Positions 21,925-30,588 of a stretch of DNA of 64,000 nt are shown here, in pieces; position 1 is the stretch's first letter; every line of letters starts with the position of its first letter. Both the position numbers and the translations under genes were made by a program. Where the stretch lies: assembly GCF_004801285.1 (NCBI RefSeq), contig NZ_SSNY01000005.1:248001-312000 (forward strand), given 5' to 3'. This stretch comes from Ollibium composti. GTDB taxonomy: Bacteria > Pseudomonadota > Alphaproteobacteria > Rhizobiales > Rhizobiaceae. A model generated the notes under the pieces. The model saw nothing but the letters and a program-made list of their open reading frames with translations. It searched no databases and was not told the origin of the DNA.

Positions 21925-22599
21925 CTATGCGGATCTCCTGACGGCGAGCCAGATCGTATGGCGTGCACCGCGCTTGCCGTTGGCGCGGATATTGACCTCT
22001 TCGACGGCAAAGCCTGCGCCGGCCAGCCGTCGCGTGAAGCCGGCGTCCGGAGCCGACGACCAGACCGCCAGCACGCCGCCCGGCTTGAGCGCCGCATGGG
22101 CCTCGGCGAGGCCGCGATGGCCGTAGAGCGCGTCGTTGCCTTTGTGGACGATGCCTTCGGGGCCGTTGTCGACGTCGAGCAGGATGGCGTCGTAGGCGGT
22201 GGCGCGGTCGCGGATCAGCAGCCCGACATCGGTCTGCCGGACGCTGACGCGCGGATCGTCGAGGCAGGAGCCGAACACCGTCGCCATCGGGCCGCGCGCC
22301 CAGGCGACGACAGCCGGAACGAGTTCGGCCACCACGACCTTAGCGTCGCCACCCAGGGCATCCAGTGCGGCACGCAGCGTAAAGCCCATACCCAGGCCGC
22401 CGATGAGGATTCTTGGCGCGTTGCGGCCGTTAATCCTTTCGCACGCCAGCGCGGCGAGGGCTTCCTCGGAACTGGAGAGCCGGCTGTTCATCAGCTCGTT
22501 CGTGCCGAGCATGATCGAGAATTCCGTGCCGCGCCGTTTCAGGCGAAGCTCGCCGCCATCCGGTAGCGGCGCCCTGTCCAATTGGACCCAGGGAATCAC
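21925..22599 (-). CDS. Spermidine-synthase-like methyltransferase-fold protein
   Basis: A 224-residue Rossmann protein. ILIGGLGMGFT (about 64-74) is the SAM/dcSAM-binding loop, Glu92 in VVVAELVPAVV is the ribose-binding acid, and YDAILLDVDNGP (about 136-147) is the catalytic-loop region. It lacks the N-terminal beta domain of true spermidine synthases and belongs to the short form common in Rhizobiales, whose substrate is unknown. Translation most likely begins at the GTG that overlaps the stop of the VUT transporter gene (GTGA), as no ATG fits; the upstream open frame is antisense-like. The two are coupled. Confidence 0.8.
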   Translation of the reverse strand: MIPWVQLDRAPLPDGGELRLKRRGTEFSIMLGTNELMNSRLSSSEEALAALACERINGRNAPRILIGGLGMGFTLRAALDALGGDAKVVVAELVPAVVAWARGPMATVFGSCLDDPRVSVRQTDVGLLIRDRATAYDAILLDVDNGPEGIVHKGNDALYGHRGLAEAHAALKPGGVLAVWSSAPDAGFTRRLAGAGFAVEEVNIRANGKRGARHTIWLAVRRSA

Positions 22600-23276
22600 G
22601 CGGCGACCGCCGGCCGCATCCAGCGCGCGGCGATCAGCCGGTAGGGGATCAGCGCGAAGACGGCGATCAGGAGCTTGACCGACAGGTCGCCGAGCGCCCA
22701 GGAGAGCCAGCGCATGGTCTCGACAGAAAACATGCCGAGCAGCGGGGCAGGCTCCAGCGCGAAAGCGTCGCCCGGTCCAACGAAGGCGAAAGCGGCCGAA
22801 AACGCGATCGTGAAGAAGATCGCGGTATCGAAGATCGAGCCGGCCAGCGTGCCGAAGATCGGCGCCCGCCACCAGCTTTGTCGTCTCAGCCAGTTGAACA
22901 CCGTCACGTCGAGCAGTTGTGCTGTCAGGAAGGCCGCGCCGGAAGCGGCCGCGATGCGTACCAGCCGGTCGGCATGCGTCTCGAACTCGATCCAGCCGGC
23001 CTTGAACAGCAGCGGCGGGGCGACGATGGAGGTGACGACCGCCAGCATGAAGCCGACGAAGACGATCCTGCGCGCCACCGCCGGCCCGTAGCGGCGGTTG
23101 GCGAGGTCGGTGACGAGGAAGGCGAAGGGATAGGTGAAGGCGCCCCAGGTCAGGATATCTGCCAGGGCCAGGCCGCCGAGGCTGCCCTGCATGGGGAACT
23201 GCACGAGGATGTTGGAGGTGACGACGACAAGCGCCATGGCCGCCACGAAAGGCAGGTAACGGAACAGGAAATTCAT
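22596..23276 (-). CDS. yhhQ: Queuosine precursor transporter (VUT/YhhQ family)
   Basis: A 226-residue inner-membrane protein with about six spans. The blocks NILVQFPM, LTWGAFTYPFAFLVTDLANRRYG and GSIFDTAIFFTIAF are typical of COG1738/YhhQ, which imports queuine or preQ0/preQ1 for tRNA modification. The ATG directly abuts a preQ1-I-like RNA element (23277-23303), which supports the assignment. The nearest upstream gene in the same direction is rpmB, only 84 bases away, so transcription may come partly from there. Confidence 0.9.
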   Translation of the reverse strand: MNFLFRYLPFVAAMALVVVTSNILVQFPMQGSLGGLALADILTWGAFTYPFAFLVTDLANRRYGPAVARRIVFVGFMLAVVTSIVAPPLLFKAGWIEFETHADRLVRIAAASGAAFLTAQLLDVTVFNWLRRQSWWRAPIFGTLAGSIFDTAIFFTIAFSAAFAFVGPGDAFALEPAPLLGMFSVETMRWLSWALGDLSVKLLIAVFALIPYRLIAARWMRPAVAA

Positions 23277-23303
23277 TTTTTTATCCTGGGTTATGGAACC
23301 AGT
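23277..23303 (-). promoter_or_regulatory. Candidate preQ1-I-type riboswitch overlapping the start of yhhQ
   Basis: On the minus strand the sequence reads ACTGGTTCCATAACCCAGG followed by ATAAAAAA and the ATG. A 4-bp stem CUGG/CCAG encloses a UUCCAUAAC loop, and the A-rich tail (A-U-A6) can fold back as the second pseudoknot strand. The GGUUC start, the CCC on the 3' side and the AAAAAA tail are the conserved parts of preQ1-I aptamers. The loop is shorter than in the Bacillus type and lacks its AGC, so this is a variant at best. The tail reaches the start codon, so ligand binding could block translation initiation. Confidence 0.6.
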
Positions 23304-23330
23304 GGGAGCTTGCCTGTCAGGCGCGCTCCC
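23304..23330 (-). other. Hairpin between rpmB and the preQ1-like element
   Basis: GGGAGC pairs with GCTCCC and encloses a second stem GCCTG/CAGGC. It directly precedes the first pairing base of the preQ1-like element and could insulate that fold. There is no U-run, so it is not a classical terminator for rpmB. Confidence 0.6.
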
Positions 23331-29537: not shown

Positions 29538-30458
29538 TCAGCCCTGCCCGACGTTCTCGATGTCGTACGGCGTCGTCTGGTAGACCTGATTGATCCAGTT
29601 GCCGAACAGAAGATGCGCATGCGAGCGCCAGCGGTTGAGCGGCGGCTTGGATGGATCGTTGCCGGGATAGTATTCGTGCGGCACTTCGATTGCGGTGCCG
29701 GCGGCCACGTCGCGGTCGTATTCCTCCTTCAGCGAGGTGGAATCGTATTCGATGTGGTTGAACATGTAGAGCCGGTTGCCCGCCCTTTCGGACAAAAGGC
29801 AGGGACCGGTCCTGTCCGATTCCATCAGCAGTTCCAGCCCGGTGTCGGGCTTGATGTCGGCGCTGCGCACCTCCGTCCAGCGCGAGACGGGAATGGCGAA
29901 ATCATCTGAAAAGCCGGCGAGATAGGGCGAGGCGGGCGCGTTGTTCCTGTGGCGGAAGACGCCGAACGCCTTCTTGTCCAGCGTGTATTTCGGCACGTCG
30001 TGGAAATGCCACGCCGCCGCCATCGCGCCCCAGCAGATGAAGAAGGAGGAATGGACGTTCGTCGCCGTCCAGTCGAGAATGCGGGTCAGCTCGTTCCAGT
30101 AGTTCACCTCCTCGAACGCCAGCAGTTCGATCGGTGCGCCGGTGACGATGAAGCCGTCGAACTTGCGATCCCGTACCTCCTCCCAGGTCTGGTAGAAGGC
30201 GATCAGGTGTTCTTCCGAGGTGTTCTTGGCCTTGTGGTTGCCGACGCGCACCAGCGTCAGTTCCACCTGCAGCGGCGTGGCGCCCATCAGCCTGGCGAAC
30301 TGCGTTTCGGTGCGGATCTTGTTGGGCATCAGGTTGAGCAGGCCGATCTGCAAGGGGCGGATGTCCTGTCGTCGCGCTGTCTTCTCGTCCATGATGGACA
30401 CGCCTTCGCGGGCAAGCACTTCGCGGGCGGGAAGCTGATCGGGGATCTTGATTGGCAT
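29538..30458 (-). CDS. metA: Homoserine O-acyltransferase MetA (predicted acetyl-CoA user)
   Basis: MetA activates homoserine in methionine synthesis. The 306-residue sequence has the nucleophile Cys142 in [10 protein letters not shown] and the His/Glu pair in FNHIEYD. Residue 111 decides the acyl donor in this family: Gly for succinyl-CoA (E. coli) and Glu for acetyl-CoA. Here the motif is [16 protein letters not shown] with Glu at exactly 111, so I predict homoserine O-acetyltransferase in spite of the succinyltransferase name. The ATG has GGAGTG upstream. Expression is controlled by the SAM-II leader. Confidence 0.94.
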
Positions 30459-30470
30459 GGGACACTCCAA

Positions 30471-30502
30471 CAAAAAGACCGGCGGCGAAATCGCGACCGG
30501 CC
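30471..30502 (-). terminator. Intrinsic terminator in the metA leader
   Basis: On the minus strand GGCCGGTCGCGA pairs with TCGCCGCCGGTC across a tight loop with one mismatch and G-U pairs, and the stem is followed by TTTTT. It sits between the SAM-II aptamer and the metA ribosome-binding site, the place for transcription attenuation. Confidence 0.65.
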
Positions 30503-30524
30503 CCATGGGTTTTGCCCTCACGGT

Positions 30525-30578
30525 CCTTTAGCGACTTCTTTAACGTGGCTGCAAGCCGACCGGCAAATCACCACGACG
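30525..30578 (-). promoter_or_regulatory. SAM-II riboswitch upstream of metA
   Basis: The minus strand reads CGTGGTGATTTG, GGCTTGCAGCCACG, TTAAAG and GCTAAAGG in the order of the SAM-II consensus. P1 is CGTGG (30570-30574) with CCACG (30544-30548). The UGAUUU loop strand and the 3' GCUAAAGG segment make the H-type pseudoknot that encloses S-adenosylmethionine. From established knowledge SAM-II occurs before metA and metX in alphaproteobacteria and turns expression off at high SAM. The 3' end lies 66 bases before the ATG, with a terminator between. Confidence 0.93.
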
Positions 30579-30588
30579 TTCGAAACCG

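Follow-up and report, generated by a model that had tools for sequence, protein, structure and literature searches.

A putative preQ1-class riboswitch that includes the start codon of queuosine precursor transporter genes in Rhizobiaceae and Bacteroidales

The window, a stretch of 64,000 nucleotides from contig NZ_SSNY01000005.1 of Ollibium composti, carries on its minus strand a gene for a yhhQ-type queuosine precursor transporter of 226 amino acids (22596-23276). The protein matched TIGR00697 with 101 bits against a cut-off of 50.95 (E 7.4e-29) and also PF02592 (Vut_1), which confirmed the target gene, a YhhQ homologue, named in an earlier reading of this DNA from its letters (the sequence-only reading). 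The upstream neighbour, outside the element described below, is rpmB for ribosomal protein L28 (23361-23654, minus strand; TIGR00009, E 1.8e-24). Both QueF and TGT were found in the window's genome, and because of QueF the synthesis of preQ1 is expected there. Elsewhere in the window, a SAM_alpha riboswitch (RF00521, 68.9 bits) was located at 30508-30584 of the minus strand. It adjoins an ORF at 29538-30521 (minus strand), which looks like MetA, homoserine succinyltransferase, with a true start that may be further in.

Positions 23302 to 23274 of the minus strand read CUGG-UUCCAUAAC-CCAG-GAUAAAAAA-AUG, in which the last three bases are the start codon of the transporter gene. The 5ʹ strand of stem P1, CUGG (23302-23299), pairs with the 3ʹ strand CCAG (23289-23286). 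Between them lies a loop of 9 nt, UUCCAUAAC (23298-23290), containing 6 pyrimidines. In an alignment of the loop with the E. coli yhhQ leader, U 23298 and C 23290 were the counterparts of U6 and C14, which contact preQ1 in E. coli (PMC10622847). CAU at 23295-23293 is complementary to AUG, as an anti-start codon, and forms the 5ʹ strand of helix P2, whose 3ʹ strand is the start codon itself (23276-23274), as judged from pair counts, the family genomes and the coupling described below. L3 consists of GAU and A6 (23285-23277) and was also present in leaders examined without a pattern; its A 23277 corresponds to A27 of E. coli, another base in contact with preQ1 (PMC10622847). A Shine-Dalgarno-like AGGA (23287-23284) overlaps the 3ʹ strand of P1. 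The 4-bp stem, the loop and the A6 tail joined to the ATG had all been recognized by the sequence-only reading. Its interval, 23277-23330, covered the stem, loop and tail but ended one base before the start codon, itself a component of the structure, and the complementarity of the loop CAU to AUG was absent from it.

The transporter gene was present in all 61 genomes searched of the window's genus, and the element was found at the transporter AUG in 30/30 loci examined there. Among 151 genomes of the family Rhizobiaceae, 143 had the gene, and 135 of these 143 had the element (113 parsed at the locus, one, G105, found by model, and 21 by pattern match only). The pattern had no match in the eight family genomes without the gene. 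The eight genomes with the transporter and without the element were G104, G106, G156, G181, G190, G192, G210 and G223. In G210, a genome of 1.5 Mb, a decayed copy of the element precedes the transporter gene (L292, 366-393), and in three more small genomes (G106, G190 and G192) the element is absent at this gene. Another genome, G704, contains the element in two exact copies, one each on contigs C30 and C32. When leaders of the family were read without any pattern, the element was at the start codon in 78 of 82, which is therefore more than chance. In a wider draw from the family, 340/394 genomes matched the pattern with three mismatches or fewer, whereas a reversed control pattern matched only G594 and G614.

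In 167 family genomes chosen by P1 (CTGG/CCAG) and the A-tract, without constraint on loop or +4 base, the loop always began with U, ended with C and contained CAU. In the window and in all 167, the A-tract continued as AUG rather than AAGG, and every start was ATG, although GTG and TTG were allowed (GUG in 0/167). With one row per genus (89 genera), the information content was 1.63 bits per column over the 26 bases before AUG, a value that is partly by construction because the rows were chosen with a pattern fixing much of the element. The values of the flanks in the same rows are unaffected: 0.07 bits per column further upstream and 0.11 just downstream of the element. A stable hairpin flanking the element had been proposed as well. 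A hairpin at 23330-23304 (GGGAGC/GCUCCC) is present in the window's predicted fold and was preferred to the 4-bp stem, which was not formed, when the sequence was folded with a program without pseudoknots, but the sequence upstream of the element is unconserved, and for this reason we excluded the hairpin from the element. A simple scan for terminators and sigma-70 promoters gave no match.

Covariance models gave two kinds of result. Rfam model RF00522 scored 12.7 bits on the window against a gathering score of 39; at the gathering score, the window gave SAM_alpha only and 0/20 relatives matched. RF00522 gave no match on the type III element of E. coli either, so its low score on the window carries little weight, and this threshold serves as a marker more than as a defining property of the class. 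The family covariance model R1, which has the window sequence among its 30 training rows, scored the site at 51.7 bits (E 5.6e-12).

Outside the family, a scan with one genome per species, using a pattern that excluded the commonest family form, gave 16 matches, nine of them at the ATG of a transporter-like ORF; the other seven were dismissed, not being at a transporter. Four of the nine were alphaproteobacterial records, from a Bauldia MAG, Mesorhizobium liriopis, Brucella cytisi and Tokpelaia, the first two having the family P1 with a 10-nt loop. The remaining five were from Bacteroidales: Mariniphaga anaerophila, M. sediminis, Tangfeifania diversioriginum and two MAGs. The two Bacteroidales proteins tested matched TIGR00697 with 217 and 220 bits, and 113/140 genomes of that Bacteroidales family had a transporter match. 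Many of these genomes have a far diverged second transporter match (about 25-30% identity), which is sometimes the only one. When the best 30 Bacteroidales orthologue leaders were examined without a pattern, 29 had the element, the exception being L349. Its form there is GCAGG-U[UC/GG]CAU-(C/A)AC-CCUGC, followed by the A-tract and then AUG. Thus P1 (GCAGG/CCUGC) differs between Bacteroidales and Rhizobiaceae, whereas the loops, the fusion to AUG and the transporter family are alike, and the closing G-C pair and the A-tract were kept in the leaders examined without a pattern in both groups. In one Bacteroidales leader, L328 of G1609, two overlapping A-tract/AUG candidates (AAAAATGAAAAAAATG) lie 3ʹ of the pseudoknot loop. 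R1, trained without Bacteroidales, found both element-bearing Bacteroidales loci supplied to it (L323, E 0.004; L325, E 0.019) and did not find L349. A UUCC-only pattern matched 5/295 genomes of the order Bacteroidales, two of them at a transporter, one being the query genome.

Searches in other groups around the family delimited this distribution. In an order-wide pattern search of 397 genomes, all 18 matching genomes were among the 21 of the window's family, with 0/376 from other families. Neither reading nor R1 found the element in 18 outgroup leaders, which came from 22 genomes of other families with a transporter match after the four weakest were left out. A class-wide model search, with stricter filters that may lose weak matches, gave 6/385 genomes at E <= 0.01: the window's own genome and five at E 0.003-0.01, roughly chance level. 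In viral contigs, 17 stretches matched two patterns, and none was at a transporter start as judged by the following ORF. The sequence-only reading had made its proposal depend on conservation upstream of orthologous genes, and this was found to be strong in the family and in Bacteroidales. The variant pseudoknot resembling preQ1-I that it placed at the start codon is thereby supported by 135/143 family genomes and 29/30 Bacteroidales leaders, while binding of the ligand would follow by analogy. A new subtype, with an aptamer among the smallest in nature, had also been raised there as a possibility.

To examine the pairing, 45 distinct rows were aligned (alignment A2): 37 from Rhizobiaceae including the window, five from Bacteroidales, one record of the genus Brucella, G796 and E. 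coli. Eight entries with 10-nt loops, G1609 with its two overlapping A-tract/AUG candidates, and all L3 linkers were left out. Over these rows 86.4% of the cells of the pseudoknot were paired, and double changes occurred in six of the nine pseudoknot pairs (2.6 in shuffles). Covariation was 0.121 against 0.035 in shuffles, a level attained by 0/500, and slid registers gave 0.025 at most. Three of the four pairs of the P1 5ʹ strand had double changes across the rows, two of these in one row each. The double changes at pairs 2-18 (P1) and 10-25 (P2) came from the E. coli row alone and that at pair 4-16 from the single genome G796; pair 1-19 was unpaired in 28/44 rows. The third P1 pair from the loop was U-A, A-U, G-C or U-G, the second was G-C, or A-U in G796 (CUAG/CUAG), and P1 of the Tokpelaia record (L307) was CCGG/CCGG. 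Within the family only the fourth P2 pair covaries, because the other three of the four involve the start codon, which hardly varies; this fourth pair is absent from the UUCC subtype, to which the window's element belongs. The pairing of P1, together with that of P2 between the loop and the 3ʹ tail, makes the element an H-type pseudoknot, as judged by covariation only, partly in single rows.

The type of loop was coupled to the base following the start codon (+4). In family genomes, the UGGCAU loop was followed by AUG-C in 62/62 and the UGCCAU loop by AUG-G in 8/8, whereas the UUCCAU loop was followed by AUG-G in 0/97 and by A, C or T in all 97. Counted by genus, these combinations numbered 37, 7 and 45 (the last with any base other than G). 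The constraint falls on the +4 base itself, because codon 2 encodes various amino acids (P, Q, L, R; G, V, D, E). We also counted changes by parsimony on a YhhQ tree of 123 rows, with at most three genomes per genus (eight for genus g1). In UUCC lineages (13.1 length units) there were 29 changes of the +4 base, against none in UGG lineages (10.5 units), where about 23 were expected (Poisson 8e-11); one change occurred within UGC lineages. The tree has few well-supported branches, the starred branches alone force two to three changes of loop type, and independent-pairs tests had too few pairs to reach significance. In Bacteroidales, UGGCAU was followed by AUG-C in 22/22 genomes, and codon 2 was CAA, CAG or CAC in 26/29 genomes with either loop. 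The coupling adds little there, because the UUCC rows also mostly have C (4/7).

We compared the element with the E. coli yhhQ leader, UUGGG UUCCCUCAC CCCAA UGGUUAAUC AAAAAGG, whose numbering agrees with the contacts published in PMC10622847. In that type III switch, the contacts involve U6, U7, C8, A13, C14 and A27, U7 positions A27 against preQ1, and the Watson-Crick pairs of P2 are U11-A28, C10-G29 and C9-G30; mutation of G5-C15 lowered the affinity 645-fold, and mutation of U6, A27 or C14 lowered it 35,000-64,000-fold (PMC10622847). The counterparts of G5-C15, U6, C14 and A27 are retained in both the family and Bacteroidales. The loop UUCCCUCAC differs from the family loop UUCCAUCAC at one position (10) and from the window loop UUCCAUAAC at two (10 and 12). 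The sequence-only reading had remarked that the loop lacks the canonical AGC, which is true relative to other subtypes, but type III offers a near match. The P2 helix has CCU opposite AGG in E. coli and CAU opposite AUG here: with C10 replaced by A and G29 by the U of AUG, pairing is kept and the target of P2 is shifted from AAGG to AUG. R1 did not find the element in the E. coli yhhQ leader, so the link to E. coli is drawn from this comparison of loops and contacts.

On this analogy, the element is quite probably an OFF switch of the preQ1 class, similar to type III, in which the start codon would be the expression platform and at the same time part of the aptamer. P1 and the A-rich L3 would form a pocket for preQ1 (or preQ0), bound by C 23290, U 23298 and A 23277; this putative ligand is suggested by the retained counterparts of residues critical for affinity in E. 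coli. Binding would clamp CAU of the loop to the initiator codon AUG, with the start codon serving as one strand of P2, while half of AGGA would be sequestered in P1. The A of AUG may be the ceiling of the pocket, as suggested by A28 of E. coli (PMC10622847). The OFF direction is suggested by the inclusion of AUG in P2: when the ligand is scarce, the pseudoknot would open, the ribosome would gain access to AUG and the precursor would be imported.

An unlikely alternative leaves the start-codon pseudoknot unchanged and gives it, in the UGSCAU subtype at least, another 7-deazaguanine or purine as ligand (such as preQ0, queuine or guanine). The counterpart of U7 is G in this subtype (70/167 family genomes, against UU in 97/167), so that its pocket may differ, and the transporter family is able to salvage both preQ0 and preQ1 (PMC10622847). 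However, the specificity C and the U6 counterpart are identical in the two subtypes, which also share the closing G-C pair and the A27 counterpart in the 45 aligned rows, and QueF in the genome leads us to expect preQ1. We give little credence to a ligand-free pseudoknot or thermosensor that fixes a low rate of translation. Covariation is evidence of structure and not of a ligand, as this explanation would have it, but the first U and the last C of the loop are invariant though pairing does not require them, and at every position examined in the family and in Bacteroidales the element precedes a queuosine precursor transporter. A protein-binding site or an A-rich, Shine-Dalgarno type translation enhancer at the start codon, without a pseudoknot, would suit AGGA and A6 as good ribosome-binding features and the nearly invariant P1 of Rhizobiaceae, but is hardly credible because the sequence of P1 shifts between groups with its pairing kept (as in the third pair and in G796), relatives with CCAGCC or CCAGCG lose AGGA but neither P1 nor the loop, and the identity of the +4 base follows the loop type.

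The preQ1-class OFF switch at the start codon may belong to something broader, for which we see slightly better than even chances: a class of start-codon aptamers spanning two phyla, in which AUG, together with the +4 base in UGSCAU, would be part of the pocket, so that the coding sequence itself senses the metabolite. UGSCAU would then be a fourth type of preQ1-I with a ceiling of its own, and a Shine-Dalgarno sequence would not be needed. Use of Shine-Dalgarno sequences is rare in Bacteroidales, and if start-codon aptamers exist as described, their independence of such a sequence would explain the presence of the element there. The second codon of a gene would in that case be constrained by an aptamer. 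A single base-pair change adapts the type III scaffold to the start codon, and a 29-nt RNA would allow a direct test of the idea.

According to a 2024 review (PMC11625349), translational preQ1 switches target the Shine-Dalgarno sequence, which they occlude fully, partially or indirectly or control by domain docking, and switches in mRNAs without such a sequence are a future challenge. The terms "start codon" and "AUG" are absent from the main text of both PMC10622847 and PMC11625349, and "initiation codon" occurs once in that of the latter, concerning S1. Among the titles and abstract openings searched, we found no preQ1 switch in Rhizobiaceae and none that base-pairs with a start codon; a type III alignment of 2014 may include these sequences.

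Among the known preQ1-I switches, the element has the class I features of a G-C closing pair, U6, the specificity C and an A-rich L3. Type I (Can) likewise has UU after the P1 5ʹ strand, and it has UC before the P1 3ʹ strand, as do some relatives of the element (CAUCUC), whereas the window has AC. Its loop has three extra nucleotides, with room for a second ligand (PMC10622847), and the short loop is the only point against two stacked preQ1 in the element. Type II (Tte, Bsu; RF00522) shares the H-type pseudoknot, AC before the P1 3ʹ strand, the single specificity C and the A-rich L3, and differs in its loop, which is intermediate in size (PMC10622847) and thus longer than that of the element, and in that the element uses the start codon as a strand of P2.

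The closest system is type III (E. coli yhhQ, PDB 8fza, PMC10622847), which has in common with the element the yhhQ target, the 9-nt loop, the G-C floor of the pocket, U6, U7, C8, C9, U11, A13, C14 and the A-tract with A27. As in type III, the window has UU after the P1 5ʹ strand, AC before the P1 3ʹ strand and a short pyrimidine-rich loop, and its element lies upstream of yhhQ. Type III is described as occluding AAGG and as almost exclusively gammaproteobacterial (PMC10622847), whereas the element occurs in Rhizobiaceae and Bacteroidales, has P2 on AUG and no spacer between aptamer and start codon, and has a P1 of 4 bp and an L3 of 9 nt; it measures 29 nt through AUG, against a 36-mer in E. 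coli and a 30-mer in the crystal construct. We do not file the element under type III because P2 does not occlude an AAGG Shine-Dalgarno sequence. Judged by its sequence, it is a variant of class I preQ1-I that appears to work like type III. Riboswitches that hide AUG in sequester hairpins are already known (PMC10907184). The adenine add riboswitch and the ileS T-box resemble the element in having a state in which the start codon is inaccessible, but their AUG lies in a separate sequester hairpin, whereas here it lies in the aptamer's own pseudoknot helix (PMC10907184 for the known systems).
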